A stretch of DNA of 64,000 nucleotides, from NCBI GenBank assembly GCA_029263415.1, contig JAJCXN010000026.1, positions 124,001-188,000 on the forward strand, written 5' to 3'. Below are positions 12,916 through 59,465 of the stretch, piece after piece; position 1 is the first letter of the stretch; each line of letters opens with the position of its first letter. The translations under genes were made by a program, and so were the position numbers. The notes under the pieces are model-generated. The model saw only the letters and a program-made list of their open reading frames with translations. It had not been told where the DNA came from and did not search any database. The DNA comes from Acidobacteriota bacterium (lineage in GTDB: Bacteria > Acidobacteriota > Thermoanaerobaculia > Multivoradales > Multivoraceae).

Positions 12916-13707
12916 CTACTTGCCTTGCCAGTTGGGTGCGCGCTTCTCGGCGAAGGCCTGTGGTCCTTCGACGAAATCTTCCGATTGGAGCATCGCCGCT
13001 TGTCCTGGCATGACCGTCCTGAGAGCATCTCGCAAAGTCATGTTGCGACCCTCGAGGACTGCTTCCTTGCTGGCCCGGATCGACAGTGGCGAGCACTCGA
13101 GAATCTGCGATGCCCAGCGCCTGGCTGCAGCCATCAACTCCTCGGGTGGAACGACTTCGTTGACGAAGCCGAGTGCTTGACCTTCCGTAGCGTTCACCCG
13201 TCGGCCAGTCAAGATCATGCCCATGGCCTGATGAAAACCGATGTGGCGGGGTAGCCGGTGCACTCCGCCGGCGGCAGCCATGAGTCCGACTCGCGGTTCT
13301 GGCAGGCCGAATACCGCGGTCTCCGACGCGATAATCAAGTCGCAAGCGAGTGCGAGCTCGAAACCGCCGCCAAGAGCGAACCCGTTGACCGCGGCGATGA
13401 CCGGTTTGGTCAACCCTTCGCGCGCCGTGATGCCACCGAAGCCGCCTTGTACGTCCTTCATGGCTTCGCGCATTGCAGCGGAGCCATGGAAGGCCTGGTG
13501 CTTGAGGTCGTTGCCTGCCGAGAAGGCACGCTTACCAGCGCCAGTCAGGATTGCGACCCATTGATCGGCGTCCTCGGCGAAGTCGGTCCAAACCTCGTCT
13601 AACTCAATCGTGGTCGGAGGATGAATGGCATTGAGCGAATCGGGCCGATTAATGGTGACAATTGTGAGGTGTCCGTCGCGCTCGACCTGGATGTGTTCGT
13701 ACGACAT
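12916..13707 (-). CDS. Enoyl-CoA hydratase/isomerase (crotonase) family
   Basis: The protein is 263 residues with a crotonase fold. The first oxyanion-hole loop is AFSAGNDLK (about residues 62-70) and the second is NGFALGGGFELALACDL. A catalytic-type Glu sits in LPEPRVGL, but the next Glu position of classical hydratases is replaced in LMAAAGGVHRLPR, so the exact reaction (hydratase, isomerase, or carnitinyl-CoA dehydratase-like) is open. An AAGGAG lies 14 bases before the ATG, a long spacing. It faces the racemase-like gene and precedes the aryl-polyene cluster, and it may be unrelated to either. Confidence 0.85.
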   Translation of the reverse strand: MSYEHIQVERDGHLTIVTINRPDSLNAIHPPTTIELDEVWTDFAEDADQWVAILTGAGKRAFSAGNDLKHQAFHGSAAMREAMKDVQGGFGGITAREGLTKPVIAAVNGFALGGGFELALACDLIIASETAVFGLPEPRVGLMAAAGGVHRLPRHIGFHQAMGMILTGRRVNATEGQALGFVNEVVPPEELMAAARRWASQILECSPLSIRASKEAVLEGRNMTLRDALRTVMPGQAAMLQSEDFVEGPQAFAEKRAPNWQGK

Positions 13708-13861: not shown

Positions 13862-14836
13862 CTAGAGCGGCGCGAAAACCCCTTCGATTTCCACCATGAG
13901 CTCTTCGCGGCAGATATCGACGCTGAAGAGTTCCACCTCTCCTTTGGTAGGGAAGGTACGCTCCACGAATCGTTTGACCCGTTCTCGATCCTCAGGTCGG
14001 CGGTGATAGATGCGCAAGTGCTCGAAATGGCCGTGCCAGTCTGATCGCGCGTCGGTCACCAATGCGGCCAATGCGCGCAAGTTTAGTTCTGTCTCGTCCA
14101 GCTGTGCTGCCAGGTCGTCGCGGTGATGGCTGTCTTCACCACGCACGCTCGCCGTGCCACCGATCAGAAGCTTGCACGCGGTTGAAGCATTGGGTTGAAG
14201 AAGTTCGAGAGCGGTAGCGCGAGAGAAGCACGGAGGACGTGGCCCGAATCGCTCTGAGTACCGATAGGCCGGCACCTGGCGGGGGTTCTCAAGTGGCCGC
14301 CCCGCTGCGGCGGCACTCAGGCAGTGGATAGTGAGGTCATCGTTGTCGCGGAGGTTGCCGACGCCGGTCGCTGTTGGCAGTGAACTCTCGAACGCGTTAT
14401 CTGAGCGTAGACTGAATGCTCGATAGCGGCTTTGATTGAACACCATGTAGCGATGATCGAGACCGCCCAACGGCTCTAGAATGCCAGGAATCACGTTCCA
14501 CATCCGGATCGGAAACGATGCTTGAAGAGTGGGAAGCGTGTCGAGGACAATTCCGTACGCCTGTTCGGTCGCCTCCGAGAACTGGTCGTGGCTGAGCCGG
14601 CGTGCCCCTGGAACACACACTGAAATGAGTCCGTGCTGACGCTCGTTGACGATGCGGATGGCAATCTGATCTTCGCGGCGTGGCCCACCGTCAAGCGCTC
14701 GCCATGGATCGCTGTCCACTCCGACCGACTCGAGATCTGGCAAAGCCCAGACCCAGGAAGGTACTGCTGCGACCGCGCTGCATGGGGTTGATGGCGGCTC
14801 GGATTGTCCACGGGAGAAAGGAAGGATTGCGTTCAT
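13862..14836 (-). CDS. Chorismatase family protein (FkbO/XanB2-like), hydroxybenzoate starter synthesis
   Basis: I do not see a common housekeeping family here. The 324-residue protein shows the pattern of chorismatases formerly called pteridine-dependent dioxygenases: MWNVIPGILEP, then RYMVFNQSRYRAF, LPTATGVGN, RPLENPRQVPAYRYSERFGPRPPCFSRA and a C-terminal LRIYHRRPEDRERVKRFV. The Asn-Pro-Arg-Gln-plus-YSERFGPRPP region is the most diagnostic. Such enzymes split chorismate to 3- or 4-hydroxybenzoate and pyruvate. Next to an acyl ligase, ACP and ketosynthases, this would supply the aryl starter unit of an aryl polyene, as XanB2 does in Xanthomonas. I chose the ATG at 14836; an upstream in-frame start at 14908 looks too early. 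Confidence 0.75.
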   Translation of the reverse strand: MNAILPFSRGQSEPPSTPCSAVAAVPSWVWALPDLESVGVDSDPWRALDGGPRREDQIAIRIVNERQHGLISVCVPGARRLSHDQFSEATEQAYGIVLDTLPTLQASFPIRMWNVIPGILEPLGGLDHRYMVFNQSRYRAFSLRSDNAFESSLPTATGVGNLRDNDDLTIHCLSAAAAGRPLENPRQVPAYRYSERFGPRPPCFSRATALELLQPNASTACKLLIGGTASVRGEDSHHRDDLAAQLDETELNLRALAALVTDARSDWHGHFEHLRIYHRRPEDRERVKRFVERTFPTKGEVELFSVDICREELMVEIEGVFAPL

Positions 14837-14950
14837 TGAGGTAGCGAATCTACCAGGAGCGAAGGCAATTAGCAGCACGCCGACGACTTCCCGACAGCGC
14901 CGCGACAACCCCGCAACAACTCCGCGATTGACCCGGGTTCGATTCTGCGG

Positions 14951-15745
14951 TCACGCCTCGTTTGCCCCGTGCTTGAGCTGGCGGGCTGTGAGGTTCATTG
15001 CCTCGATCTGATCGAGCAACGGTTCAAGCACTTTGAGCACCATCGGTTCGCCGTCGTCAGTCGTTGCAGCGTTGCCGTCATGGAGGAGCAGGATCTCGCC
15101 TGCACTGAGTCCTTGGGTGAGGCGTCTCAAGACGCGTCCGGGATCTCGCTGGGAGGTGTCGAAGCCCCGCCGAGACCATGAGGTGAGCTCTAGCCCCATT
15201 TGTGAGAGGACCGGTTGCAGCCAAGGGCTTCTGACCCCGGCCGGTGCTCGGAAACGGGTTGGCGCAGGGGCGCCGGCATCGCAAATCGCCTGTTGTGCTG
15301 TCATGCACTCACGTCGCAATTGTTTGAGGGTGTAGGTGCAGAACCATGAGGAATGGTGCTGGGTATGGTTTTCGACGCCGTGCCCGGCGGCCACAATCTG
15401 TGACACCAGTTTTGGGTGTAAAGACGCGCGCTCGCCAATCAAAAAGAAGGTGGCCTTGACCCCACGGCGTTCGAGCACGTCGAGCACCTGGGGTGTGACC
15501 TCGGGATCTGGCCCGTCATCGAAGGTTAGTGCGACGGCGCTGGGATCATCGATGGTAGTGCGGTTCGGGCCAAGCAAGGTGGAGCGCGGAATGGTCCCCG
15601 CGATGCTGAGGACACCGTGTTGCAGCACAATCCAGAACACAACCCAGGGCCAAGCGCCAGGTACCAGGACCGCTGGCAACGCAGCCAGTTGCAACAAGAC
15701 GGACGCACGGACGGGAAAGCTGAGCCCGTGCCAAAGCGTCTTCAA
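14951..15745 (-). CDS. NodB-type polysaccharide deacetylase
   Basis: The protein is 264 residues. Two hydrophobic segments near the N-terminus (about residues 10-50) suggest membrane anchoring. The carbohydrate esterase 4 motifs follow: ALTFDDGPDPEVT (catalytic Asp and metal Asp), HGVENHTQHH (metal His), RFRAPAG and LLLHDG. Family members deacetylate N-acetylated sugars. It starts at a TTG within the stop of the upstream acyl-ligase gene (TTGA), so the two are coupled and it belongs to the pigment cluster. A role in trimming the sugar head group that carries the polyene is possible but not shown. Confidence 0.85.
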   Translation of the reverse strand: MKTLWHGLSFPVRASVLLQLAALPAVLVPGAWPWVVFWIVLQHGVLSIAGTIPRSTLLGPNRTTIDDPSAVALTFDDGPDPEVTPQVLDVLERRGVKATFFLIGERASLHPKLVSQIVAAGHGVENHTQHHSSWFCTYTLKQLRRECMTAQQAICDAGAPAPTRFRAPAGVRSPWLQPVLSQMGLELTSWSRRGFDTSQRDPGRVLRRLTQGLSAGEILLLHDGNAATTDDGEPMVLKVLEPLLDQIEAMNLTARQLKHGANEA

Positions 15746-17244
15746 TGTTCCTTGGCCTCACACAGGCGCCGAGCAGCCGCACGATCGAGCTTGCCGCGTT
15801 CAGTGCGCGGTAGCTCTGCGACAACGGTGATGCTACGGGGAACCTTGTATTCGGCGAGGTTGTCGCGGCAATGGCTCAGGATGGTGGCGCGGTCAAGGCT
15901 CGCTGGTCCAACGATCAGCGCCTTGAGGTGCAGTGAGTTAGGACGGTTGGCTTTGGATTCGGCGAAGACGTAGGCATCCTGGACACGATCGAATGAGGTG
16001 AGGACGCGTTCAACCTCGCTGGGGTGGAGTTTCTTCCCTTTGAGGTTGAGGACGTCGTCTGAGCGTCCTTGGAGTCGCAGCAGGCCGCCGTCGAGAGTCG
16101 CCAGATCGCTGCTCAAGAAGCCACTAGCAAAGTGCTCGAAGCTGGTCGTTTGGTCCGGCTGTGCGGCAGCGTGAAGGTAACCACTAGCCAGGGCTTCGGA
16201 GGTCACTCGAACCTGCCCGATGGGAGCGCCGTTGTGAACTGAGTGGTCCAGTTCTAGCGTGACGCCCTCGACTGCGGTTCCCAGGGCCCCATCAAGACCG
16301 GCAGCGCCGGTTCGATCGAAGGCGATGCCGCCGCATTCACTGGCTCCGTAGAAAGTCTTGATGGGCAAGCCGAAGCGGGCATGAAATCGTCGGGCCGTTT
16401 CTTGCAGCAAGGGTGCACCCGCGGAGATGACTAGCCGAACCGTTCCAAGGGGGGCGCGTTGCGAGGAAGCCTCGATCTGAGATGGAGTGTTGGACTGGGG
16501 GGAAGCGTTGGATTGAGGTGCACCTAGTCCAACCATGGCCTGGAGCCAGGCGGGCACCGAAGGGAAGAAGGTGACATTTGCGGTGCGCAGGGTTTTCAAG
16601 GCGTCCACCGGGCTGTCGGAGATGGGCATGACGATGGTCATGTCGCGAAGCAAAGCAGCCAAGGCAATCGAACTTAGACCATAGGAGTGCGACAACGGAA
16701 TCGTAGTGAGCACGCGCTCTTGACCGAGCTGCATGGATGCGTAGAGCGCAGCCTCATCGGCAAGCAGGGCGGCTTCTGTGACCATGACCCCTCTTGGCCC
16801 ACCGGTGGAGCCCGATGTGAGTTTGATCACCGTGGTTTGGGCGCTTGCAACTGCGGCTTCTGTGGCTTCTGTGACGGGCGTTCGAGGTAGTACGGTCCAG
16901 CTCCAGGCCACGCTCGAACAGGGGTCTGTGTTCACCAGGCTTGCACCGCATCCGAAGGTCAATCCCAGCCGTTCGACCTCGACTGGTGGAGTGGCCGCAT
17001 CCACCAGTAGAACCGTCGCCCCGAGACGCTTCAGGCCGACTAAGGCGGCCAGAAATTCGGGGCCGTTGGCGCATTTCAGGCAGACGACCGCATTCTCCCT
17101 CAGCGTTGGAGCCGACTCAGCGAGTCGGCGTGACAAAGCACTGATCTGGGCGCGCGTCCAGATCGAGTGGCCTCGTTCGATCAAAGGGAAGCCTGGATCG
17201 GCTTTTGTTTGCGCCTCAAAGGCGGCGAGCAGGGTCGAGTCCAT
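15742..17244 (-). CDS. Acyl/aryl-activating ligase of the ANL superfamily (aryl-polyene cluster)
   Basis: The protein is 500 residues. Adenylation motifs are clear: KLTSGSTGGPRGVMV (A3), TIPLSHSYGLSS, FYGASECGG, LQGRSDDVLNLKGKKLHP and the C-terminal catalytic Lys in RTERGKLDR. The substrate is probably the hydroxybenzoate made by the chorismatase-family protein two genes downstream, activated as acyl-AMP and loaded on the ACP encoded divergently. Residues about 247-270 contain a low-complexity loop (SNASPQSNTPSQ) rich in Ser, Asn, Gln and Pro that looks like a recent repeat insertion. Start is ATG at 17244. A start elsewhere is not suggested. Confidence 0.88.
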   Translation of the reverse strand: MDSTLLAAFEAQTKADPGFPLIERGHSIWTRAQISALSRRLAESAPTLRENAVVCLKCANGPEFLAALVGLKRLGATVLLVDAATPPVEVERLGLTFGCGASLVNTDPCSSVAWSWTVLPRTPVTEATEAAVASAQTTVIKLTSGSTGGPRGVMVTEAALLADEAALYASMQLGQERVLTTIPLSHSYGLSSIALAALLRDMTIVMPISDSPVDALKTLRTANVTFFPSVPAWLQAMVGLGAPQSNASPQSNTPSQIEASSQRAPLGTVRLVISAGAPLLQETARRFHARFGLPIKTFYGASECGGIAFDRTGAAGLDGALGTAVEGVTLELDHSVHNGAPIGQVRVTSEALASGYLHAAAQPDQTTSFEHFASGFLSSDLATLDGGLLRLQGRSDDVLNLKGKKLHPSEVERVLTSFDRVQDAYVFAESKANRPNSLHLKALIVGPASLDRATILSHCRDNLAEYKVPRSITVVAELPRTERGKLDRAAARRLCEAKEH

Positions 17245-17482
17245 AGGGCCGTTGGTCGAAGTCGTCGCGACGGGTTGAGGCTTGAGGTCCGGCCTTGTTA
17301 CGGGGCGGACGGATGGCGAAAGGCCACCATATTGCGTGAACCACGACAGAGGCGCCGCGTTTAAGCGGCAGTATACTTGGCGCCTAGAACCGTGCGGGTG
17401 AGCTGTTCTTCGAACTCAACCGATTGTTCGCAGCGGATCCCCGAAGCATTGAAGATCCCTTAGCAAGAGTAGATATTCCACA
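17245..17482. promoter_or_regulatory. Divergent promoter region of the aryl-polyene cluster
   Basis: This 238-base gap separates the minus arm (ligase, deacetylase, chorismatase) from the plus arm (ACP onward). A TATACT at 17372-17377, inside the palindrome AGTATACT, is a good -10 candidate for the plus arm, but I cannot find a matching -35. Two GGCGCC hexamers flank it (17351-17356 and about 17379-17384). The arrangement would allow one regulator to control both arms. No regulator gene is present nearby. Confidence 0.4.
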
Positions 17483-17758
17483 ATGAGTGAATCGTCGGTC
17501 CGTGATCGGATCAAAGCAGTGATTATTGAGAGCCTTGGACTCGAAGGCATGACCATCGACGAGATCGGTGACGAGATGCCCCTATTTGGTGAAGAAGGCC
17601 TTGGTCTGGACAGTGTCGACGCTCTCGAACTGATGGTGGTCATGGAGAAAGACTTCGGGGTGACCATGGACACCGAAGAGATGGATCCCGAGGTGTTCAG
17701 CACTGTGTCGAGCCTCGAACGATTCTTGTCGGCAAATGCGGCACCCTCTCAGGAGTGA
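17483..17758 (+). CDS. Acyl carrier protein (aryl-polyene type)
   Basis: The protein is 91 residues, acidic and helical, with the phosphopantetheine attachment Ser in GLGLDSVDALEL (Ser44). The pattern of a longer first helix and PLFGEEGLGLDS is typical of ACPs in aryl-polyene clusters rather than the housekeeping fatty acid ACP. Its stop overlaps the GTG start of the ketosynthase (GTGA), so the two are coupled. It would carry the aryl starter and the growing polyene chain. Confidence 0.92.
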   Translation: MSESSVRDRIKAVIIESLGLEGMTIDEIGDEMPLFGEEGLGLDSVDALELMVVMEKDFGVTMDTEEMDPEVFSTVSSLERFLSANAAPSQE

Positions 17759-19197
17759 GTCAGTCCTCTGTTTTTGAGTCTTTGGATTCCGGATCTTCTG
17801 AGTCCGAATCTGCTGAGTCCGAGTCTTCTGAGTCTGGGCCTTCTGATTTCGGATGTTCTGATTCAGAGTCGCGCGATTCTGGTGCGCGTGCTTCTGCAAC
17901 GCTGGGCGCACCGTCGGCCGAGACTCACCTAGATGGGGCTGCGGTGATTGGGCTGGGGGCGGTGACGGCTTTTGGCTGGACTTCCGCCGACCTGCGGCGA
18001 GGGTTAGCGACTGGAACCACCACGGTCCGTGAGCCGGTCGAGTTCTCGACTGCGGGCCATCGCACCGCGCTTGCCTCGGAGGTGTCTGCTGGTCCTGAGC
18101 CGTCAGTGGCCCTTGGCGACCGGGTCGGGTGGAACCGGTTGTCCCGAGCGGATCAGTTCGCGGTCGTTGCTGCACGGGAGGCTTGGGCGGCCTCGACAGT
18201 CGCTGATTGGGTCGACCCTTGCCGCGTCGGGGTGTTCTTCGGCGGTAGTACTGCGGCCATGGCTGAAGCCGAGGGCTTCTTCGGCCAGACCCTCAAGAAC
18301 GATGGTCCAAGACCGCGGTTACGAAGTCTCGAGTCGCAACAGCTCAATGGTCCTGGTGACGCGGTTGCTCGTGAACTGGGCGTCAGCGGTCCGGTGGTGT
18401 CGATGTCCTCGGCCTGCGCCAGCGGCGCGTTGGCGATTGAAGCGGCGCTCGAAGCTCTACGCAGCGGCGAGGTTGACGTCGCTGTTGCTGGAGGTTCGGA
18501 CAGCCTGTGCCAGATGACCTACGCCGGCTTCAATGCACTACGAGCGGTGGACCCTGAACGGAGTCGACCGTTTCGCGTAGAGCGCTCTGGACTCAATCTC
18601 GGTGAGGGAGCGGGGGTTCTGGTGCTGGTGCGGGCCGAATCGCTGAAGCAGAACCGTGATTCGGTGGTGGCGCCGATGGCGTGGCTACGCGGGGCTGGAG
18701 GATCGTGCGATGCCCATCACATGACGGCGCCGCACCCGGAGGGTGCAGGAGCTGCAGCCTCCATGCGCGCCGCACTACGCGATGGCGGGCTCGAACCGCT
18801 CGCTGCTTCCTTCGTGAACGCTCACGGTACCGGCACACCCCATAACGACAGTGCAGAGGCAGCCGCGATTGCCGATGTTTTCGAAGACGGGTTGCCAGTG
18901 ACGTCCGTCAAAGGAGCCATAGGTCACCTGCTAGGCGCCGCCGGCGCCGTTGAGGCTGTGGCGACTGTGCTCGCGCTATCGGATGGTGCTGTGCAACCGA
19001 CCGCCGAGACAAAGGGGACCCGTACTGAGATCCAGCAAACCGGCACACTGGAACCTGGCGTCGACTTGGTGCTCGGTGCACCACGAGTGTTGCCAGCTGG
19101 GGCAGACCGGGTCGGGGTGTCGAATAGTTTTGCCTTCGGTGGTGCAAACGCGTCGCTGGTGTTCTCGACCTCACCCGTTTGCGGTCCAACGTTGTGA
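17755..19197 (+). CDS. Beta-ketoacyl-ACP synthase (catalytic ketosynthase, KS-alpha)
   Basis: The protein is 480 residues as called. Residues 61 onward form a complete FabF-type thiolase fold with the full catalytic set: Cys221 in SSACASG, His357 in NAHGTGTPHND, Lys386 and His391 in KGAIGHLLG. The first 60 residues are low complexity, repeating Ser-Glu and Ser-Asp, encoded by degenerate GAGTCT-like repeats; they are absent from normal ketosynthases and may be a repeat expansion or a disordered tail. GTG 17755 overlaps the ACP stop. The next gene is a catalytically dead partner, so the pair resembles a KS/chain-length-factor heterodimer that elongates the aryl polyene. Confidence 0.92.
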   Translation: MSQSSVFESLDSGSSESESAESESSESGPSDFGCSDSESRDSGARASATLGAPSAETHLDGAAVIGLGAVTAFGWTSADLRRGLATGTTTVREPVEFSTAGHRTALASEVSAGPEPSVALGDRVGWNRLSRADQFAVVAAREAWAASTVADWVDPCRVGVFFGGSTAAMAEAEGFFGQTLKNDGPRPRLRSLESQQLNGPGDAVARELGVSGPVVSMSSACASGALAIEAALEALRSGEVDVAVAGGSDSLCQMTYAGFNALRAVDPERSRPFRVERSGLNLGEGAGVLVLVRAESLKQNRDSVVAPMAWLRGAGGSCDAHHMTAPHPEGAGAAASMRAALRDGGLEPLAASFVNAHGTGTPHNDSAEAAAIADVFEDGLPVTSVKGAIGHLLGAAGAVEAVATVLALSDGAVQPTAETKGTRTEIQQTGTLEPGVDLVLGAPRVLPAGADRVGVSNSFAFGGANASLVFSTSPVCGPTL

Positions 19198-20477
19198 GTC
19201 GCGATCGACCGGCGATCGCCGTTTCAGGCGTAGGGGTGGTCTCTGGTCATGGCGCTGACCTCGAAGCCCACCGAGCCGCCTACCGTGAAGGCCGGTGCGT
19301 CTTGCGAGAAGTGGATCGGGCCGCGGGCTATCACCGCGAGAACTCGGCGCGTTCCGCGTCTCTTGTGGATGCAAGTTGCTATCGCGAGGTTCTTCCGCCG
19401 ATGAAGGCCCGGCGGATGAGCCCACCATCACGGTTCAGCATGGTGGCAGCGCTGGCAGCGCTCGAGGACGCCGGACTCTCGCGCGACGCTTTGGCCGCCG
19501 ATCATGGCGGCGATGTCACCGCCGTTGTGTTTGGGACGTCCTATGGTCCGTCGTCTTACACCGAGCGCATTCTGAGGCAGATTCTGTTGGAGTCTCCACA
19601 GGCGGCCTCGCCAATGCTGTTCACTGAGTCTGTCGCAAATGCCCCCGCCGCGCAGGTTGCGCTGGCATTGGGCTGCAAGGGACCCAATATCACGGTGACT
19701 CAGCGTGAGGCGAGCGCTCTAGTGGCGGTGGGACAAGGCGCTGCATTGATCCGCTCCGGTCGTGCTCGACGAGCCTTGGTCGGGGGCGTCGAGGAACTGA
19801 ATCCGCTGCTGCATTCGATTCTTGATCGGTTTGGCGCTCTTACCGGTAGCCGGGGCATGGCACGCACGGATGCGGCCGATCCCGAGGCACGGCCCCTTGA
19901 TCTCAGGCGCTCGGGATTTGTCGCAGCTGAGGGTGCAGCGGTCTTGGTGCTCGAACGCACCGATGACCTGTTAGATAGGGCGGGTAGAGCTCGCGCCCTG
20001 GTCGGGCCGATGGCCCGAGCATTTGACCCTGAGGCGCCAGCGACAGGTTGGGGCCGCACCGCCCCAACCACGGCACGCCGTCTACTGAGCGAATGGCGGC
20101 GCCAGGGTGGGGTTGAGGGTGCGTCCGAACTGGCCGGGGTTGTGGCCGGTGCGAATGGCAGCCGCCGTCACGATCTTTTCGAGTCTGGGTTGCTGCGCGA
20201 GGTCATGGCCCTGCCATCGAATGGTACCGCCGGCCGAGACCCCACGGAAGCACGCGTGCTGACGCCAAAGCGCTTCATGGGTGAGCAGGGAGTGGCAACG
20301 CTGGTGGGCGCACTGCTCGCCCTTGAGGGCAATAGTGGCGGCTCGCCGTCAGGTTTCGAGGTCGATCCGTTGATATGTCTCGTGCCCAGCGATGACCGGG
20401 TCCAGCCCGGAAAGTTGTTGCTGTCCGCCGCGGCTGCCGGTGGCTCCTGCTGCTGGCTCGGGCTAGAGTCGCCATGA
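19194..20477 (+). CDS. Chain-length-factor-like ketosynthase homologue without catalytic residues (KS-beta)
   Basis: The protein is 427 residues with a ketosynthase fold, but the active site is gone. By alignment to its neighbour, the Cys position is Glu172 (in TQREAS), the NAHGTGT His lies in a changed GANGSRRHD, and the KGAIGH motif reads KRFMGE. Loss of the nucleophile and both His residues is expected of a chain-length factor, which pairs with an active ketosynthase and sets chain length. It starts at GTG 19194 inside the ketosynthase stop. An earlier TTG at 19179 is less likely. Confidence 0.88.
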   Translation: MSRDRPAIAVSGVGVVSGHGADLEAHRAAYREGRCVLREVDRAAGYHRENSARSASLVDASCYREVLPPMKARRMSPPSRFSMVAALAALEDAGLSRDALAADHGGDVTAVVFGTSYGPSSYTERILRQILLESPQAASPMLFTESVANAPAAQVALALGCKGPNITVTQREASALVAVGQGAALIRSGRARRALVGGVEELNPLLHSILDRFGALTGSRGMARTDAADPEARPLDLRRSGFVAAEGAAVLVLERTDDLLDRAGRARALVGPMARAFDPEAPATGWGRTAPTTARRLLSEWRRQGGVEGASELAGVVAGANGSRRHDLFESGLLREVMALPSNGTAGRDPTEARVLTPKRFMGEQGVATLVGALLALEGNSGGSPSGFEVDPLICLVPSDDRVQPGKLLLSAAAAGGSCCWLGLESP

Positions 20478-20521
20478 CCCGTGCTACCGCCGCCATGAAC
20501 CCGTGCTGCCGCCGCCATGAA
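20470..20521 (+). repeat. Imperfect 21-22-base tandem repeat at the 3' end of the KS-beta gene
   Basis: A unit of the form CGCCATGACCCGTGCTACCG occurs about two and a half times, beginning over the last codons and stop of the chain-length-factor gene and running into the gap before the glycosyltransferase. It is not a CRISPR: units are adjacent, with no spacers. Confidence 0.6.
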
Positions 20522-20596
20522 GTGTGAAAAGCGGCACCGAGCTAGCGCTTGTAACCTGCACCTAGACTGTTACCAACGACTCCTGCATAGGCTTCA

Positions 20597-21484
20597 ATGA
20601 CCCTCAACTCCCCCAAGCGCCTTGACGAGATGGAGACCCAGCCCGCTGGCTTGCTCGTACCGTTGCGGCCAGAACGTGCGCTCGAACTGCAGCCAGAGGC
20701 CGAGGGCGCCAGCGATACCCCATTAGACCTGGTTGCGCCGTTTCCGGTACTGGGCCCCCACAACGTAGCGGCGGTGATCCCTGCCTACCAAGCTGAGCCG
20801 TGGATTGCGGAAGTGGCTCGGTCGGCGGCGGATCAGGTGCATCGTGTTCTGGTCGTTGATGACGGCTCAACCGATGGAACACAAGAGCAGGCACTGAGGG
20901 TCGGCGGCGCAGTTGAAGTCACTCGGCTCGACGAGAACTTGGGCAAGGGAGCTGCGCTTAGGCATGGCTTCATGCTCCTCATGGAGGAGCCGACGGTCGA
21001 GGCGATCATCACTCTTGACGCAGACGGACAACACCGCCCGACTGAGATGCCCAAGTTGCTAGAGGGTGCTGACGAGGCCGATTTGGTCTTGGGTTGTCGC
21101 AGTCACCTGTTCGGCAGTATGTTCTGGCTTAGACGGTTGGCCAACACCACCTCTGCTCGACTGATTTCCCTGGCGGCTGGTCGGCCGCTGCGCGATGTTC
21201 AGACTGGCTTTAGGCTCTATCGCCGACGTTTGCTCGAGCGTCTTCCTCTGGCAGAAGATGGATTCGAGGCGGAGAGTGCCGTCGTTGTGCGCGCCGCTCG
21301 GCAAGGCTACCGGATCGAGTCGGTGAGCATCGATCTGGCCGAGGTCGATGGTCGCTCAACCAGTCACTATCGCCCGTTGGTGGACAGTCTTCGCATTCTG
21401 CTCGGGGTTGTTGCCGCGCGGGCACTTGGTCCCGTGGACAATGCGGGTAGAAAGCCGAACTCTCAAGAAAAACACTCCTCTTGA
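20597..21484 (+). CDS. GT2-family glycosyltransferase (dolichol-phosphate-mannose-synthase-like)
   Basis: The protein is 295 residues. The GT-A fold begins at about residue 55 with AAVIPAYQAEPW, VLVVDDGSTDGT and the metal-binding TLDADGQHRP; QTGFRLYRR is the acceptor-side motif of DPM1-like enzymes. The first 55 residues are an unusual low-homology extension. There is no C-terminal membrane domain. Aryl-polyene clusters commonly carry a GT2, which is thought to help attach the pigment to a membrane carrier. Its TGA overlaps the TTG start of the ketoreductase. Confidence 0.88.
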   Translation: MTLNSPKRLDEMETQPAGLLVPLRPERALELQPEAEGASDTPLDLVAPFPVLGPHNVAAVIPAYQAEPWIAEVARSAADQVHRVLVVDDGSTDGTQEQALRVGGAVEVTRLDENLGKGAALRHGFMLLMEEPTVEAIITLDADGQHRPTEMPKLLEGADEADLVLGCRSHLFGSMFWLRRLANTTSARLISLAAGRPLRDVQTGFRLYRRRLLERLPLAEDGFEAESAVVVRAARQGYRIESVSIDLAEVDGRSTSHYRPLVDSLRILLGVVAARALGPVDNAGRKPNSQEKHSS

Positions 21485-22230
21485 GCGTCATAGAAGACAT
21501 TGCAGTGAGTGAACAGCAGGTGTTGGTGACTGGTGGAAGCAATGGCATCGGTCGGGCCGTGGTGCAGGCATTGTGTTCCGCGGGCCACCGTGTCGCGCTC
21601 ACCTACCGGTCCGATTCAGCCTCGGCGGACGCGGTTGTCAAGCAGTGCAGTGGGCTCGCGACCGCGCATCACCTTGACTTGGCGTCGCGTTCGGCTCCAA
21701 AAGAACTGATTGACCGCTTGGAACAAGACGGGCCGGTGGTGGGGCTGGTGAACAACGCTGGGATGCAGTCGTCTTCACTCTTGGCCATGACCTCGGACAC
21801 TAACTGGGACCAGATGATTGATATCAATCTGTCAGGAGCCTTTCGCTGCTGTCGAGCGGTTTTGCCTTTCATGGTGCGGCGGCGCGGCGGTGCCATCGTG
21901 AACATCTCGTCGCTCGGAGCGGAACGAGGGATTGCAGGCCAAGCTGGCTACGCGGCGTCGAAGGCTGGACTGCTCGCCATGACGCGTGTGCTCGCGCGGG
22001 AGATGGGGCGGCGGGGTATCCGAGTGAATTCAGTGATCCCAGGCTTTGTCGAAACCGGGTTGACTGCGGCACTGCCTGAATCGGCAAGGGCGACGCTGAG
22101 GGCAGCTGAGTGCTTGCCCGCCGGCACCACTGCCAACTCGGTCGCGGACGCAGTGGCATTCCTGCTATCGGATCGCGCCTCGTCGATCACCGGCGAGAGC
22201 CTGCACGTAGATGCGGGTGCGTCGTGCTGA
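21481..22230 (+). CDS. 3-oxoacyl-ACP reductase, FabG-like SDR of the polyene cluster
   Basis: The protein is 249 residues, an SDR of classical length. The NADPH-binding loop is VLVTGGSNGIGRA, followed by NNAG, and the catalytic Ser-Tyr-Lys set is in NISSLGAERG and YAASKAG. In this setting it would reduce each ketoacyl-ACP to the hydroxy form before dehydration, making the conjugated chain. The start is uncertain: TTG 21481 overlaps the upstream stop, as other genes here do, while GTG 21505 would give the more usual N-terminus. Confidence 0.93.
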   Translation: MSVIEDIAVSEQQVLVTGGSNGIGRAVVQALCSAGHRVALTYRSDSASADAVVKQCSGLATAHHLDLASRSAPKELIDRLEQDGPVVGLVNNAGMQSSSLLAMTSDTNWDQMIDINLSGAFRCCRAVLPFMVRRRGGAIVNISSLGAERGIAGQAGYAASKAGLLAMTRVLAREMGRRGIRVNSVIPGFVETGLTAALPESARATLRAAECLPAGTTANSVADAVAFLLSDRASSITGESLHVDAGASC

Positions 22231-22285
22231 TGCTGACGCTGCTGGTCGGCGTTCGATAGTCCGACTTCCCGAAGTTCCCTCAACG

Positions 22286-25200
22286 ATGTACACCAAAGTG
22301 GCTTCATTCGCGCGTCACCCGTGGCGCTGGTTGTTGTTGATGGGCATCTTGGCGCTGGGCGGAGCCTGGTTGGGGACCGCTATGCGGCTCCCGGCAGACT
22401 TGCTGTCGATGCTGCCTGGCGACGTACCGGCCGCGCGTGCTTATCGAACGTTGCTAGAGGAATTTGGCGGGCTCGAACGGATCTTCGTGGTGGTCTCACA
22501 TCAGGCCGATTCGACCGCCGGAAGGGAGGCCAGTTCTAGCGACAGTGCGGAGAGCCGGGTCCTCGATGCGGCGCTCGAACTGGAAGAGCGACTGGCTCGT
22601 GAACCCCTCATTGCCGGCGTCCGAGCGGGCGTCGAGCCCGAGGATGAGCGCTTCCTGTTCGAGTATGTGGTACCTCGGGAGGTTCTCCGCAATTCCGAAT
22701 GGACGATTGATCGCATTGCAGACCGCCTGACCGAAGTGTCGATCGCGAAGCGGGTTCAACTACTCCGCGACAAGATCCGCAGTCCGGCGGGGGAGTTTGA
22801 CGTTCGCCTAGCGCGGTTCGATCCGCTGGGCTTCGCAGAGTCGAGCTTGCTCACTCGAGCCTCCGAACTTGGGTTGTCGGTCGATCCGCTATCAGGAGTT
22901 TTCCGGTCAGAGCAGGGTTCTGCGCTCTTGATGTTGGAGCCCAAGGCTTCAGAGCTGGATTCGGTGGTTGGCCGCGAGCTGGCTGACGCGCTAGCTCGGA
23001 TCTTTGCTGAGGTGCAGATCATGATGGGTCCGGGCATTTCGATCACCGCCGCGGGTGGCCCGCTCTACGCCGCTGAGGACGAAGAACTGATTCGCTCAGA
23101 TCTCGAATGGACCATCTCGCTGTCGGTCGCTGGCTGCCTCCTAGTCCTGCTCTTAGCTTTTGGCAGCTGGCGTGCGACGGTGGTGGCAAGTTTTGTACTG
23201 GCCGGAGCGTTTGCGCTTGCCTTCGGTACGCTGGTACTGCTGCGCGGGGAGATGCTGGCGGTGAGCCTTGGCTTCGCCGCTGTTTTGGTGGGGCTCGGCA
23301 TCGACTATGTGATTCACGCGATCACTCGATTCCGGCAGAGCCTCGAGTCAGGGGCAGATGCGGAGGCCGCCTTGATGGAGGTAGCGCGGGAATCGGGACC
23401 GCCGCTCGTGGCCTCGTCCTTCACCACCGCAGCAGCGTTTGCGGTGTTGCTTGGGTCGGCCATGAGACCGCTGGTTGAAGTCGGCCTGCTGGTGTCGGTG
23501 GGCATCGTGATGATGATGGTGTGTACCGCAGTCGTGGGCGGGCCCTTGATGGCTCTGTTGATCAAGGTGCCAGTGCGACCAGGGCGCCGCGTAGGTGGAC
23601 GACTTGCCTGGCTTTGGCGACCATCACAGCTAGTACCCCAGGCGATGACGCGGTTTTCGCGCAGACGCTCGTGGGCGGTGTTGGGTGTTACAGCTCTGGT
23701 GCTGTTGATGTCGTTGTGGAGCGCGCGTGGCTTGCGCTTTGAGCCGAAGTTCGAGGACCTCCGGCCAGACGATCATCCCTTGGAGCTGACCGAACGACAA
23801 CTGGTGCAAGAGTTCGGACTCGAAGAAGACAGCGTCACGGTTCTGGTTCAAGGTGAGACGGTTGATCAAGCATTGGCGCGCAGTGAATCGATAGTGCGAT
23901 TTCTCGAGGATCCCGAGAACCCATTGTTGGGCGAGATTCAGCGCTCGGTGTCTTCGCCGTCCACTGTCTTGATGGCCGAAGCAGCTTTGAGCGAGCGCCT
24001 GAGCGAGCTCTCTGAGCTGCCGTGGGCAGAGGCTGCTACCAGGCTCGAGCGGTTGTTGCCGGAAGCCGGGCTGTCGGCTCGCGGCTTTGGGCCGGGCCTT
24101 GCGGTTCTTCGTGATTTCGCTGGTGGTCGGGAACCTCGGGCTGGCGCAGATCTTGCGAAGCCTGATTGGGTGACCTCGCAGTTTCAGCTGCGCGAGGACG
24201 GCACTGCACTGGTCGCTATTCGGGTGAGAACCGATCCTGAAGGGTCGCGGGTGCTTGCGACTGACGCTGTTGCCGAGGCGTTGCAGAGTCTTGTTGAAGG
24301 CAGCGAAACGGTCACAGTGGCGAGTGCATTTGCTCTCGGTGAGCAGCTTCGTGTGGTGGGTGAGCGAGAAGTGGGCGTACTTGCACTGGCCAGCCTGGGT
24401 GTGGTGCTTCTGGTGGTGTCGATCTCGCTCGGGTTCTCGCCGATGGCGACGGTGATTGCGCTGCTCCCTATTGGCATCGGTGCAACAGCTGCCTTCGGAT
24501 TCTTGGGAGTGACGGCGGGGCATCTCGATTTCCTGAGTCTTGCGATCGTCCCAATGCTGTTCGGCATTGGGATCGACGACGGTCTGCACGCGTTGTGTGG
24601 AGCGGTCCCAAAGGGCTATCGGGGCCTTGGCCTCTCGAGGCGAGAGCATAGGCGCCGGTTGCTCTCGTCCATGCTCAAGCGGATCGACGGCGCATCTAGA
24701 GCGATTACGCTGACCACAGTAACCACCGCCGTTGGTTTTGGCAGTTTGCTGGCATCGTCGATGCCCGGCCTACGGGTCGGCGGGATGATTGTGGCGGTCG
24801 GCGTCTGCGCATGCTGGTTGGCAACGGTGATGGTGTTGCCGGCCCTTGCCACCGTGCTGTTGGGTCCCGAACCTAGCGGCGAAGATCCTCAGCAGATAGG
24901 CACGCTAGCCCCGGAGACGCGGTGGCGGAGCGCGCTCGGAGTGCTGCATTTCAGCAGCCCTGTTTGGTACAGGTTGCATGCGTTGTTGATGCGTTTGCTG
25001 CCGTCGTGGGCGATCTCGGTGATCATGCTTCCTGTTTTGGCTGCGTTCTATCTGTTGTTGGGGAATGTCAGACGAGCGTTGCTTGTGAATCAGCGAGCGG
25101 CGTCGCAAGGAAGGACCACGGGGCTGTTGGGCGCTCATCGCCGCGCGTTCGCCACGCTGACCAATTTTGCGTGGTGCTTCAGTGAAACCTACGAGGGCCT

Positions 25201-25834
25201 GTTTGATCCGCAGACTCGGTCGGTAGCGTCGGTCGAGGGGGTCGAGAACTGGCAAACAGTAATGGCAGACGGCCGCGGCTTCATCATTGTCACCGCGCAC
25301 GTTGGACACTGGGAAGTCGGATCGCACTTGTCGAAGTTTGATCGGCCTCGCAAGGTCAACGTGGTGCGCGAGCCAGAGATGAACCCACGAGCGCAGGCCT
25401 TCCTGGAGGAACTCTTCGGTCGTGATGATTCAGGGCACTATCAGGTTCACTTCGCACGACCTGAGGACCCGATGCTGGGCGGGCGTCTGTTGAGTGCTCT
25501 CAGGCGGGGGGAGATCGTGGCGTTGCAGGGCGATCGCCCTCGAGCAGACGGGAAGACGGTCGCAGTCGAACTCTTGGATCGCTCCTACGAGTTGCCGGTC
25601 GGGCCCTTCGCAATGGCCCGTGCTGCATGTGTTTCGATCTTGCCGGTGTTCGTGTTCCGAGATGGACGCCGCCGCTCAGCGCTACATCTGAGAGAACCGA
25701 TCATCGTTGATCGAACTAGAGTGCGAGACACTGACTTCGCGAAGGCCGCTAGCCAGTTTGCAGTTGAGGTCGAATGGGCGATCACTCAGCGACCGCAGCA
25801 GTGGTTTTGCCTGCGTAAGTTGTGGGACGAGTGA
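22286..25834 (+). CDS. RND/MMPL exporter fused to an LpxL-type acyltransferase
   Basis: A single uninterrupted frame encodes about 1182 residues. Residues 1-870 are an RND/MMPL transporter: TM1 near the N-terminus, an extracytoplasmic domain, a TM cluster around 280-440 with GLGIDYVIHAITRFRQSL, then a second half with TM7, a second domain and GIGIDDGLHALCG in the final TM cluster. From about residue 886 a lauroyl/myristoyl acyltransferase domain follows, with the catalytic HVGHWE (His1005, Glu1010) and ALQGDRPRADG. Aryl-polyene clusters normally encode these as separate proteins, so here export and acyl transfer are joined. I chose ATG 22286; an in-frame ATG at 22211 overlaps the ketoreductase gene. 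Confidence 0.88.
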   Translation: MYTKVASFARHPWRWLLLMGILALGGAWLGTAMRLPADLLSMLPGDVPAARAYRTLLEEFGGLERIFVVVSHQADSTAGREASSSDSAESRVLDAALELEERLAREPLIAGVRAGVEPEDERFLFEYVVPREVLRNSEWTIDRIADRLTEVSIAKRVQLLRDKIRSPAGEFDVRLARFDPLGFAESSLLTRASELGLSVDPLSGVFRSEQGSALLMLEPKASELDSVVGRELADALARIFAEVQIMMGPGISITAAGGPLYAAEDEELIRSDLEWTISLSVAGCLLVLLLAFGSWRATVVASFVLAGAFALAFGTLVLLRGEMLAVSLGFAAVLVGLGIDYVIHAITRFRQSLESGADAEAALMEVARESGPPLVASSFTTAAAFAVLLGSAMRPLVEVGLLVSVGIVMMMVCTAVVGGPLMALLIKVPVRPGRRVGGRLAWLWRPSQLVPQAMTRFSRRRSWAVLGVTALVLLMSLWSARGLRFEPKFEDLRPDDHPLELTERQLVQEFGLEEDSVTVLVQGETVDQALARSESIVRFLEDPENPLLGEIQRSVSSPSTVLMAEAALSERLSELSELPWAEAATRLERLLPEAGLSARGFGPGLAVLRDFAGGREPRAGADLAKPDWVTSQFQLREDGTALVAIRVRTDPEGSRVLATDAVAEALQSLVEGSETVTVASAFALGEQLRVVGEREVGVLALASLGVVLLVVSISLGFSPMATVIALLPIGIGATAAFGFLGVTAGHLDFLSLAIVPMLFGIGIDDGLHALCGAVPKGYRGLGLSRREHRRRLLSSMLKRIDGASRAITLTTVTTAVGFGSLLASSMPGLRVGGMIVAVGVCACWLATVMVLPALATVLLGPEPSGEDPQQIGTLAPETRWRSALGVLHFSSPVWYRLHALLMRLLPSWAISVIMLPVLAAFYLLLGNVRRALLVNQRAASQGRTTGLLGAHRRAFATLTNFAWCFSETYEGLFDPQTRSVASVEGVENWQTVMADGRGFIIVTAHVGHWEVGSHLSKFDRPRKVNVVREPEMNPRAQAFLEELFGRDDSGHYQVHFARPEDPMLGGRLLSALRRGEIVALQGDRPRADGKTVAVELLDRSYELPVGPFAMARAACVSILPVFVFRDGRRRSALHLREPIIVDRTRVRDTDFAKAASQFAVEVEWAITQRPQQWFCLRKLWDE

Positions 25835-26259
25835 AGTCGATGTCGGATTTCCTCGCACCAAAGGACGTGCTTCCGCATCGCGACTCGCTCTTGTTGCTGC
25901 GCCGGATTCTCGAACTCGATCAAGATCACCTCGCCGCGATCGCGATGGTCGGCACCGACTGCGCCTTGGATCGTGGTGGCGTGGTCCCGACGACCCTACT
26001 GGTCGAGATGGCGGCTCAGGCTGCGGCCTACCATGCCAGCGTGGGCGCAGTTCAAGATGGCAACGAGCCGGCGGAGAAGGGCTTCTTGGTGCGGCTCCGC
26101 AAGGTCGAGTTCGAGGTGGAAACGATGGATTCGGGCCGCGAGGTGGTCGTGCGAGTGAGCCGTGTGGGAGCGATGGGCGGCCTCGCGATGTATGACTTTA
26201 AGTGCTCGTTGGAGCAACGTGAAGTGTCCCAGGGTTCACTGTCGATCATGACCGGCTAG
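25831..26259 (+). CDS. ApeP/FabZ-like 3-hydroxyacyl-ACP dehydratase
   Basis: The protein is 142 residues with a hotdog fold. The N-terminal LPHRDSLLLLRRI supplies the catalytic His, and PTTLLVEMAAQAAAYH the catalytic Glu and central helix. This layout matches the ApeP-type dehydratases of aryl-polyene clusters, which remove water from the hydroxyacyl-ACP. It is shorter and more divergent than the housekeeping fabZ at 59466. GTG 25831 overlaps the stop of the exporter gene; the ATG at 25840 is an equally likely start. Confidence 0.82.
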   Translation: MKSMSDFLAPKDVLPHRDSLLLLRRILELDQDHLAAIAMVGTDCALDRGGVVPTTLLVEMAAQAAAYHASVGAVQDGNEPAEKGFLVRLRKVEFEVETMDSGREVVVRVSRVGAMGGLAMYDFKCSLEQREVSQGSLSIMTG

Positions 26260-26284
26260 AAGGTTCTTGCAATACCATGGAACG

Positions 26285-27991
26285 ATGTCGATGAGCGCGA
26301 GCACAGACCTGTCAGCAACCGCAGCGCCTCCAGCCTCGACGGCCAATGGCCCGGACTGCTCTGACTACCCGGACTGCTCTGGCCCCCCGGACTGCACTGA
26401 CTACGACGTGGTTGTGGTCGGTGGTTCGCTCGCAGGCGCCAGTACCGCGTTGCTACTGCGTCGGGCGAATCCGGAACTCCGGATCCTGATCGTTGAACAG
26501 GCTGAGCGCTTTGGCCACAAGGTTGGCGAGGCGACGGTCGAGGTATCTGGCTTCTTTCTCGAACAGGTTCTCGGCCTCGGCGACCATCTGCATCGCAAGC
26601 ACCTGCCGAAGCACGGGTTGCGCTATTGGTTCAGCAGCCGCTCTGACGACACCCTAGAGACTATGGGTGAAGTGGGGCCAATGATGGCGCCTCATGTTCC
26701 GAGTTTTCAGCTCGATCGATCGGTGTTGGACCAGCATGTTTTGGAGTTGGCGGTCCAAGAGGGTTGCAAGCTCATGCGCCCTGCGCGGGTGAAGCAGTAC
26801 CAGGAGGCGTGGCCTGCGAGTGAGGTGACGATCGTTCCCGACGATCCATCAGACGGCCCGGCCGAATCCCATACGGTGAGCTGTCGCTGGCTGGTGGATG
26901 GTTCCGGTCGCCACGCGTTCCTCGCCCGCAAGAAGCGCCTGATTGAACGCCTAGAAGAGCACCCGACCAATGCAACCTGGAGTCGCTGGCGGGGCACTCT
27001 TGATCTGGACAGTCCAGGGTTCACAGACACCGTTGGAGGACAGAGCCTGCCTCGGTTGCGCGCGCAGCGACGACTGGCCACGAATCACTTCACCGGTCGA
27101 GGCTGGTGGTGCTGGGTGATTCCGCTCTCCAACGGCAAGACCAGCGTTGGATTGGTTTCAGACCGAAGGCTCTTCGATCTGAGGGAGCGCGATGGAGATG
27201 CACCGAGTACGGCACGTGATCGATATGAACGCTTTGTGCGTTCACAGCCTGGTCTAAAACAGCTCCTAGCCGATGCCGAAATGTGTGACGACTGTGACAG
27301 CTACTCGTTTATGCCCTATCGCACGTCGAAGTACATGGACGCCGGGTGGGCCTTGGTCGGCGATGCGGCGTCCTTCATAGACCCGTACTACAGCCCAGGA
27401 CTGGATCACCTGGCGATGTCAGTGACGGCAACTGTTGAAATCTTGGGCCAAGACCTCAACCAGGAACTCGACAAGGTCGAACTCATCGACAAGATTGCCG
27501 CGCACAACAAGGCGTTCACCGTTTCGTATCGACGATGGTTCGAGGCGCTCTATCAGGACAAGTACCAGATCCTTGGAGACGGGGATCTAGTGACCGCCTC
27601 CTTCTTGGTGGAGACGTCGCTCTACTACTTTGGGGTGGTCACTCCAATCCTGCGCGAGCCTAGTGCGATAAGGAACCCAGTGTTCGGTGCTCCATTGCCT
27701 CAGTCACGCGTCGCCTTTCGCTTGGCTCGGGCGTTTCGCCGACGCATGGTTCGCCTTGCCGAGTTGAGGACGCGGAAGGGACTCTACGGACATCGGAACT
27801 CGGACTGGTCCTACTATCCAAAGGGGTTCGGACTCGGTTGGCGTGTGTGGCCGACCCTGCTCAAGGGGCTTTCGGTTTGGGCGCGCTGCGAGTTTGAGCA
27901 GATCTTCGCTGGCTCCAAAGCACGTCCGACCGTGGACAAAGAGGCTGCACCGGACCTAGGTCCGAATGGCACCCCGGACACTGCCAGCTAG
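26285..27991 (+). CDS. Flavin-dependent halogenase-like FAD oxidoreductase
   Basis: The protein is about 568 residues. After a short repetitive N-terminus (three near copies of PDCSD), the FAD-binding VVVVGGSLAGAS appears, then KVGEAT typical of the halogenase group. The halogenase signature is only partly kept: WWCWVIP holds the W-x-W-x-I-P core, but the leading Gly of GWxWxIP is a Trp. GDAASFIDPYYSPGLDH is the second FAD motif. In brominated xanthomonadins a halogenase modifies the ring; this protein could do so, or act as a monooxygenase or dehydrogenase. I chose ATG 26285; ATG 26291 and TTG 26267 are alternatives. It ends 6 bases before the convergent nadE. Confidence 0.8.
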   Translation: MSMSASTDLSATAAPPASTANGPDCSDYPDCSGPPDCTDYDVVVVGGSLAGASTALLLRRANPELRILIVEQAERFGHKVGEATVEVSGFFLEQVLGLGDHLHRKHLPKHGLRYWFSSRSDDTLETMGEVGPMMAPHVPSFQLDRSVLDQHVLELAVQEGCKLMRPARVKQYQEAWPASEVTIVPDDPSDGPAESHTVSCRWLVDGSGRHAFLARKKRLIERLEEHPTNATWSRWRGTLDLDSPGFTDTVGGQSLPRLRAQRRLATNHFTGRGWWCWVIPLSNGKTSVGLVSDRRLFDLRERDGDAPSTARDRYERFVRSQPGLKQLLADAEMCDDCDSYSFMPYRTSKYMDAGWALVGDAASFIDPYYSPGLDHLAMSVTATVEILGQDLNQELDKVELIDKIAAHNKAFTVSYRRWFEALYQDKYQILGDGDLVTASFLVETSLYYFGVVTPILREPSAIRNPVFGAPLPQSRVAFRLARAFRRRMVRLAELRTRKGLYGHRNSDWSYYPKGFGLGWRVWPTLLKGLSVWARCEFEQIFAGSKARPTVDKEAAPDLGPNGTPDTAS

Positions 27992-31091: not shown

Positions 31092-31532
31092 CTAACCCAC
31101 CATCCTGTGGAATCCAGCCTGTAGCTCGTCGCTCACCCGACACACCCGTCCGGTTTGGGAATTCACCCAGGTGTGTTCGGTGACTCCTCGGGCCAGGACT
31201 TTCGTTGGCTCACCGCTCTCAAGGCGGCTGACGTCGTAGCCGAAGTGCATCAGCCGACTGCGGGTTTTGTGGACCCAGGCGCCCACGCGCAAGCTGTCTC
31301 CGTACTTGGCGCCCGAGCGGTAGTCGACATGCACTCTGGTGACCATCAACCAATAGCCCATCTGCTCAATCTCGGGATAGCTCTTGCCAGACCGCTCGCA
31401 CAAGGCAGTTCTCGCTAACTCGAACCACACCAAGTAGTTGGCATGGTGAACAACTCCCATCTGATCCGTCTCCGCATAGCGGACCTCGATGTCGACCTCG
31501 TGGATGGTCCGATCTGTAGGGCGCTTGTTCAT
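31092..31532 (-). CDS. YbgC/4-hydroxybenzoyl-CoA-type thioesterase
   Basis: The protein is 146 residues with a single hotdog fold. The N-terminal VRYAETDQMGVVHHANYLVWFELAR is the classic YbgC/FcbC signature; the core ETDQMGVVHHANYLVWF carries the catalytic Asp. Such enzymes hydrolyse short or aromatic acyl-CoAs. It lies 57 bases downstream of a GT2 on the same strand; the gap is filled with short tandem repeats. Because it is only 3 kb from an aryl-polyene cluster, an aromatic thioester substrate is conceivable, but nadE lies between them. Confidence 0.9.
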   Translation of the reverse strand: MNKRPTDRTIHEVDIEVRYAETDQMGVVHHANYLVWFELARTALCERSGKSYPEIEQMGYWLMVTRVHVDYRSGAKYGDSLRVGAWVHKTRSRLMHFGYDVSRLESGEPTKVLARGVTEHTWVNSQTGRVCRVSDELQAGFHRMVG

Positions 31533-59318: not shown

Positions 59319-59465
59319 GACGCGGGCCAGGCCCTTTGATCACTTCTACTGTGGTTCGGTGGTGAGCGGGTGGCCTGGGCTGCGTCCAGCGAATAGGATC
59401 GGTCCTCACAGAATTTCCCGCGAGGAACTACTGGCGTCGCCAGCAGTCGAGGAACGAAAAGGCAC

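Follow-up and report, generated by a model that had tools for sequence, protein, structure and literature searches.

A candidate aryl-polyene-type pigment-lipid cluster with a full-length chain-length factor in an Acidobacteriota genome

Closest described systems and the acidobacterial cluster

The described gene set nearest to the locus analysed here is that of the arcuflavin clusters of Azoarcus sp. BH72 (PMC3949708). The locus is a cluster of eleven genes within a 64,000-nucleotide stretch of DNA (the window; G000:C26:124001-188000) from a genome of 6.89 Mb in 60 contigs. The arcuflavin genes include the chorismatase arcB, the halogenase arcA, the polysaccharide deacetylase arcN, the glycosyltransferase (GT) arcE, the acyltransferases arcD and arcR, the exporter arcP, the ligase arcT, and the acyl carrier protein (ACP) arcV. 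Common to both systems are a chorismatase, AMP ligase, ACP, ketosynthase (KS), ketoreductase (KR), dehydratase (DH), GT, acyltransferase, exporter, halogenase (in the window a halogenase-like protein), and polysaccharide deacetylase. The arcuflavin system has a chain-length factor (CLF)-like protein listed as an N-terminal ketoacyl synthase domain, a LolA protein, separate loci, and a dialkylresorcinol part, whereas the window has a full-length CLF, no LolA among the eleven genes, a single locus, and an exporter fused to an acyltransferase. Xanthomonadin-type clusters of Xanthomonas and Lysobacter (PMC3691225) resemble the window in their XanB2-type chorismatase, type II KS, KR, DH, and ACP, and acyltransferase, and the Xanthomonas cluster also in its halogenase, the counterpart of the halogenase-like gene of the window, but they have a half-length CLF, LolA, and another gene order. 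With the aryl-polyene (APE) cluster of E. coli CFT073 (L153; PMC8253772), the window shares an ACP, KS, KR, ligase, GT/acyltransferase, and resistance-nodulation-division (RND) exporter logic. That cluster differs in its 18 genes, the half-size CLF ApeC, two ACPs, a second KS (ApeR), ApeG, ApeL, ApeN, and a methyltransferase, and it contains no chorismatase or deacetylase. Its ApeJ is a fusion of GT and acyltransferase, in contrast to the exporter-acyltransferase fusion of the window. In APE systems the CLF is about half the size of the KS and has one thiolase domain (PMC8358021; PMC3691225).

The gene set of the window is real, with every open reading frame (ORF) confirmed at its coordinates. 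All ten families named in an initial annotation of the sequence were found by Pfam matches: FkbO_Hyg5-like_N, AMP-binding, PP-binding, ketoacyl-synt (twice), Glycos_transf_2, adh_short, FabA-like, Trp_halogenase, and, within one ORF, MMPL and Lip_A_acyltrans. Its count of ten genes becomes eleven with a polysaccharide deacetylase that had been overlooked between the chorismatase and the ligase. The genes form two divergent arms, the left one on the minus strand in the order ligase, deacetylase, and chorismatase, and the right one in the order ACP, KS, CLF, family 2 GT (GT2), KR, MMPL-acyltransferase fusion, ApeP-like hotdog protein, and halogenase-like flavoprotein. Each arm is probably one operon, because neighbouring genes within it overlap by 4-20 bp or are separated by gaps of 7-119 bp. 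The view that the host is neither a gammaproteobacterium nor a member of the Bacteroidota is borne out by its order-mates G337 and G373, which carry this CLF and have the gene maps of loci L074 and L076 from Thermoanaerobaculia metagenome-assembled genomes (MAGs); the host is therefore an acidobacterium, most likely of this class.

Together, the eleven genes probably build a yellow, membrane-anchored, xanthomonadin-like polyene pigment from a benzoate starter. We consider it reasonably probable that they encode a pigment-lipid pathway like xanthomonadin or arcuflavin biosynthesis with a KS-CLF lineage of its own, the products and reactions being predicted. Judged from its sequences, the cluster should work like these pathways, yet its KS and CLF do not show the traits expected of an APE system, as the KS falls outside the ApeO clade and the CLF is full length. 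No ApeC, ApeG, or ApeL match was found in it. The initial description as an aryl-polyene (xanthomonadin-like) cluster is partly supported: a type II pathway of polyene type, linked to a chorismatase and equipped with a lipid-anchor and export arm, is retained, and the placement among APE clusters is not supported by the KS tree and the CLF length. Occurrence outside Proteobacteria and Bacteroidota, which had been put forward as the novelty, has precedents, with arylpolyene clusters known from Acidobacteriota (PMC8692599) and from a Verrucomicrobiota isolate (PMC9865893), and KS-CLFs known from Acidobacteria (PMC10132072). We found no description of a chorismatase-linked cluster of this build with a full-length CLF in the open-licence literature searched; what is new here is the architecture, not the phylum. 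If the proposed pathway is true, pigments of aryl-polyene type in a major, largely uncultured phylum come from a distinct synthase lineage, and such clusters may be overlooked or wrongly labelled by models that expect an APE CLF of half size.

The ketosynthase-chain-length factor pair and its recurrence

The KS was placed in an unrooted IQ-TREE phylogeny of 63 rows, which includes no Xanthomonas KS because the Xanthomonas stretch L129 contains none. KSs of the window's type, type A (the window and L051-L066, 17 rows, with the partial L050 left out), form one clade (support 100/100) outside the ApeO clade. The latter (100/99) consists of 14 ApeO-like rows and E. coli ApeO, and includes Nitrospirota and Myxococcota MAGs. 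The initial annotation had tied the aryl-polyene assignment to KSs within the APE clade; the tree places them outside it, though a constraint joining type A to ApeO, 5.8 log units worse, is not rejected by the approximately unbiased (AU) test (p-AU 0.203). Nor does the test reject a constraint that joins type A to the f7 and Phycisphaerae types (p-AU 0.181). From plasmids, the best 40 of 772 KS-matching records (all below 60% identity) and 11 of 11 chorismatase records were examined; regions H3, H19, H2, H48, and H50 were inspected, and the KSs of H3, H19, and H2 only entered the tree.

In the CLF of the window, Glu replaces the active-site Cys and both His residues are lost. None of the 24 aligned CLF rows (the window, 18 other type-A, and 5 f7-type) has the triad, with Glu in the Cys column in 23 and Gln in 1. 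An AlphaFold model of the window CLF (pLDDT 89.5, pTM 0.91) forms a complete double thiolase fold that matches KS folds along its whole length, the top rank being shared by the KS/CLF chain of the ishigamide type II polyketide synthase (PKS; PDB 6kxd) and FabF (tied at Z 49.6). The ishigamide system has a polyene-forming KS with a full-length CLF, and we know of no aryl starter or lipid-anchor set in it. The residue pattern suggests that the CLF of the window is a catalytically dead partner of the KS.

APE-type ACP, ligase, KR, GT/acyltransferase, and RND exporter are present in the cluster at the level of Pfam families, and phmmer gives matches from the window to E. coli ApeE, ApeQ, and ApeJ. 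The best NCBIfam models for the KS and the ACP are PRK09185 and PRK09184, which include E. coli ApeO and ApeE, respectively; the KS scores 299 bits (cut-off 407) and the ACP 56.7 bits (cut-off 70). E. coli ApeC, ApeG, and ApeL had no phmmer match (E 1e-3) in the window and the 17 other type-A loci; ApeL queries scored just 27-57 bits in several canonical clusters, so that a weak ApeL or ApeG could escape in the 17 loci. All 11 genes of the cluster belong to families other than those of ApeL and ApeG. ApeN had no match in any locus compared and is hence uninformative. A Pfam scan found no cyclase or aromatase families among the cluster proteins; the KS tree held no act KS.

A search for the CLF at E 1e-35 matched 22 of 396 genomes of the phylum. 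Within the host family, the host itself, G001, and G023 have a CLF orthologue (47-49% identity), and the 21 genomes of genus g3 gave weak CLF matches only (best 5e-22). Neighbourhoods were compared for 22 loci, namely 20 of the 21 other phylum matches (G090 excluded) together with G001 and G023; 17 are of type A, and five (L067-L071) are of a more distant, class-level type. KS and CLF occur together in all 17 other type-A loci. At bit cut-offs that we chose ourselves, and with several stretches ending at contig ends, these loci also hold the ligase in 12 cases (at least 100 bits), the deacetylase in 11 (at least 150 bits), the ACP in 11, GT2 and KR in 10 each, chorismatase and acyltransferase in 8 each, MMPL in 7, DH in 6, and the halogenase-like gene in 4. 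Chorismatases (profile A1, E 1e-15) were found in 40 of the 396 genomes, and are present in 19 of 22 CLF genomes, meaning those with a window-type CLF or its class-level relative, versus 21 of 374 others (Fisher p 1.4e-18); CLF genomes with no chorismatase match are G139, G243, and G283. The deacetylase at E 1e-30 occurs in 18/22 CLF genomes versus 20/374 others and, at 170 bits or more, in 13/22 versus 2/374 (p 6.4e-17). The association of the cluster genes is therefore more than chance, with the KS-CLF pair recurring in 17/17 loci, the other genes in 4-12, and strong co-occurrence across the phylum.

Predicted pathway and alternative explanations

In the proposed pathway, the chorismatase would convert chorismate to 3-hydroxybenzoate, which the ligase would load onto the ACP. 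The nearest solved structure to the chorismatase is 5ag3 (107 bits), which we take to be Hyg5, and the enzyme scores 79 bits to FkbO (4bps) and 142 bits to TIGR04444 (cut-off 325). It has Cys and Gly at the positions of Hyg5 C327 and G240, both of which are Ala in FkbO, and the Cys and the catalytic Glu are invariant in 9/9 aligned rows. The Hyg5 subfamily is marked by these two residues plus a third Gly (PMC7170507). The third Gly, placed by a constant offset, is present in the window, and was rejected as a discriminator because FkbO also has Gly at the aligned position. The Cys and Gly shared with Hyg5 make 3-hydroxybenzoate the likely starter, and the xanthomonadin- and arcuflavin-like trait of a chorismatase supplying it is seen here only in the family and in these residues; a published caution is that sequence alone does not settle the product of a chorismatase (PMC3949708). 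The start codon may be the TTG at 14908 (listed) or the ATG at 14836, as N-termini vary too much among relatives to settle the choice.

The KS and its catalytically dead, full-length CLF would elongate the starter with malonyl units, and the FabG-like protein would reduce the keto groups. The best NCBIfam model for this KR is a 3-oxoacyl-ACP reductase (219 bits, cut-off 297.75), and it scores 116 bits against E. coli ApeQ. It also shows FlxB-like similarity (174 bits, cut-off 340); the KS tree held no Bacteroidota flexirubin reference. A conjugated aryl polyene would then arise by dehydration, with the ApeP-like protein and the housekeeping FabZ (window 59397-59957) acting jointly or with FabZ in place of the former; conjugation is expected because the cluster has no separate enoyl reductase. 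Dehydration is the weakest step of the pathway. The hotdog protein scores 23 bits against the FabA-like Pfam family, exactly the cut-off, and in alignment the catalytic His of FabZ is absent from it, as it is from E. coli ApeP. Its assignment as a normal FabZ was rejected on this ground. Among the loci scanned, the hotdog ORFs of L056, L061, and L064 carry in one open frame a GHF half resembling ApeI and a second half resembling ApeP, which suggests a complete dehydratase of the kind missing from the window. E. coli ApeI has weak matches in L064 and L065 (23 and 24 bits).

The halogenase-like flavoprotein may add a halogen or a hydroxyl group to the ring. That it is a ring hydroxylase or other monooxygenase, leaving the pigment unhalogenated, is a serious possibility, though a less than even one. 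Its best NCBIfam score is to the flavin-dependent monooxygenase QhpG (70 bits), with LodB and the halogenase CmlS just behind (68 bits each) and none of the three near its cut-off, and a pairwise alignment with RadH puts a Trp, conserved in 9/9 orthologues, at the place of the catalytic Lys (presumably K74 of RadH). Loss of this Lys was considered on that evidence and overturned by the wider alignment, in which every row with letters at the column has Lys. In addition, the window and eight close orthologues keep WxWxIP, FxDPxxSxG, and K-x-G, the middle residue of the last varying. Among distant rows, L084 and L138 break WxWxIP or FxDPxxSxG, and L095 and L138 have Ala for the Gly of K-x-G.

The GT2 and the NodB-type deacetylase resemble ArnC/ArnD logic, in which ArnD is the deacetylase partner, and as such a pair they would make a lipid-phosphate-linked amino sugar. 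The four solved-structure matches of the GT2 are three undecaprenyl-phosphate Ara4FN transferases (ArnC) and one dolichol monophosphate mannose synthase; no ArnD-named chain is among the 34 solved-structure matches of the deacetylase. Deacetylase homologues of 164-233 bits lie near the chorismatases of L108, L114, L126, L130, and L142. APE lipids of Xenorhabdus reportedly carry a galactosamine-phosphate-glycerol anchor, and the GT2-deacetylase pair, if read correctly, offers a testable route to a poorly understood lipid anchor. The LpxL-type acyltransferase domain, whose HX4E motif reads HVGHWE, would join the polyene to this anchor, and the fused MMPL domain would move the product across the inner membrane. 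The fusion, found also as a single open frame in L064, would suggest that attachment is coupled to export.

Two other explanations bear on the cluster as a whole. It could be an ordinary canonical APE/xanthomonadin family member that has merely diverged in sequence, for which the NCBIfam models taking in ApeO and ApeE, the joint clade left standing by the AU test, and the fact that most families are in common with the arcuflavin clusters all speak. We regard this as unlikely given the strong support for type-A and ApeO KSs as separate clades, the two thiolase halves of the window CLF compared with the half-size, one-domain APE CLF (PMC8358021), and the unmatched ApeC, ApeG, and ApeL. Somewhat less probable again is a highly reducing type II PKS, nearer the ishigamide type, that makes the short or partly reduced polyene acyl chain of a non-pigment glycolipid. 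A full-length KS-CLF pair and the tied top rank of the ishigamide chain agree with such a system, as does a Streptomyces plasmid locus (L154) with several KS-family genes, an ACP, a reductase, and two dehydratases, but the co-occurring chorismatase and the lipid-anchor genes fit xanthomonadin-like clusters, and the five Actinomycete KS rows stand apart from type A in the tree, though the intervening branch has a support of just 91/85.

The xanthomonadin- and arcuflavin-like pathway that we prefer has its own evidence to contend with. Besides the KS outside the ApeO clade, a CLF that is not of the half-size APE type, and the ApeC, ApeG, and ApeL nulls, the KS, ACP, and chorismatase score below the curated NCBIfam cut-offs of their nearest models, and phmmer at E 1 matches neither the window ligase to ApeH nor the MMPL protein to ApeM. 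The catalytic histidine of FabZ is absent from the dehydratase, the best score of E. coli ApeI in the host genome is just 16.8 bits, and PF07977 at E 0.001 finds only FabZ there, in a search that missed the window's own DH, is not exhaustive, and could let divergent dehydratases escape. Many loci miss some parts, partly through contig or stretch ends. The phylum co-occurrence counts ignore kinship, and scoring covered at most the best 4 to 6 first-look candidates of each genome. Eight of the 19 chorismatase-positive CLF genomes gave rows to profile A1, while in the remaining 11 the chorismatase lies on another contig than the CLF, and the chorismatase matches in G038 and G373 are reported with internal stop codons. 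A more far-reaching proposal, which we hold tentatively and incline to doubt, is an independently evolved aryl-polyene glycolipid system of Acidobacteriota, in which a full-length KS-CLF would have converged with the half-CLF APE systems on hydroxybenzoate-primed polyenes, with an ArnC/ArnD-like anchor and a fusion coupling attachment and export.

Coordinates, flanking genes, and related loci

Table 1. Features of the cluster, in window coordinates.
Feature	Position	Strand	Basis and remarks
Chorismatase, FkbO/Hyg5/XanB2 family	13862..14908	-	Pfam PF21168; predicted chorismate to 3-hydroxybenzoate
Polysaccharide deacetylase (NodB fold), hydrophobic N-terminus	14951..15745	-	PF01522, 100.6 bits; predicted sugar-head-group N-deacetylase
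AMP-dependent acyl ligase	15742..17244	-	PF00501, PF13193; predicted loader of hydroxybenzoate starter
Divergent intergenic region, 238 bp	17245..17482		Presumed control region for both arms, from spacing
Acyl carrier protein	17483..17758	+	PF00550
Ketosynthase (KS-alpha), Cys-His-His intact	17755..19197	+	PF00109/PF02801, active-site alignment, tree
Full-length chain-length factor, 432 aa	19179..20477	+	Active-site columns, AlphaFold model
GT2 glycosyltransferase, polyprenyl-phosphate sugar kind	20597..21484	+	PF00535
FabG-like ketoreductase	21481..22230	+	PF13561/PF00106
MMPL exporter fused to LpxL-type acyltransferase	22211..25834	+	PF03176 + PF03279, one 1207-aa ORF
ApeP-like hotdog protein, FabZ catalytic His missing	25822..26259	+	FabA-like Pfam match; ApeP alignment
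Flavin-dependent halogenase-like protein	26267..27991	+	PF04820, 54 bits; nearest solved structure RadH

Genes on both flanks were considered and excluded from the cluster: on one side an enoyl-CoA hydratase (12916-13707), with no hydratase among the matches listed for the 17 type-A loci, and on the right NAD synthase, short-chain dehydrogenase/reductase (SDR), and 4HBT thioesterase genes, with no NAD synthase or 4HBT among those matches. The thioesterase (31092-31532, minus strand) scores 56 bits to E. coli ApeK and lies 3 kb outside the cluster, separated from it by the NAD synthase and SDR genes; ApeK had no match in any of the 17 type-A loci.

The loci L067-L071 represent a second, distant KS-CLF type in Acidobacteriota with the CLF motif T[QE]RES, in which ligase, ACP, and GT2 adjoin the KS-CLF in 5/5 and the chorismatases lie on other contigs. 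A chorismatase and a strong deacetylase match lie about 2 kb apart at G137:C51:4144-7908, in a genome with no CLF match, which may be read as a cluster whose KS-CLF is of another kind or absent. Outside the proteobacteria, clusters of the canonical ApeO/ApeC type that include a chorismatase occur in MAGs of Nitrospirota (L125, L145, and L148) and Myxococcota (L099). Among Phycisphaerae (Planctomycetota), eight chorismatase loci (L073, L078, L083, L084, L090, L092, L107, and L121) have a KS ORF of 728-1039 aa. Behind the KS, each of these ORFs has a second KS/CLF-like domain that scores 78-129 bits to the CLF profile, mainly over its first two thirds, and they are apparent KS-CLF fusions. The host itself probably has modular PKS genes elsewhere, as contigs C2, C40, and C49 carry ketosynthase-domain open frames of 2273-5765 aa.

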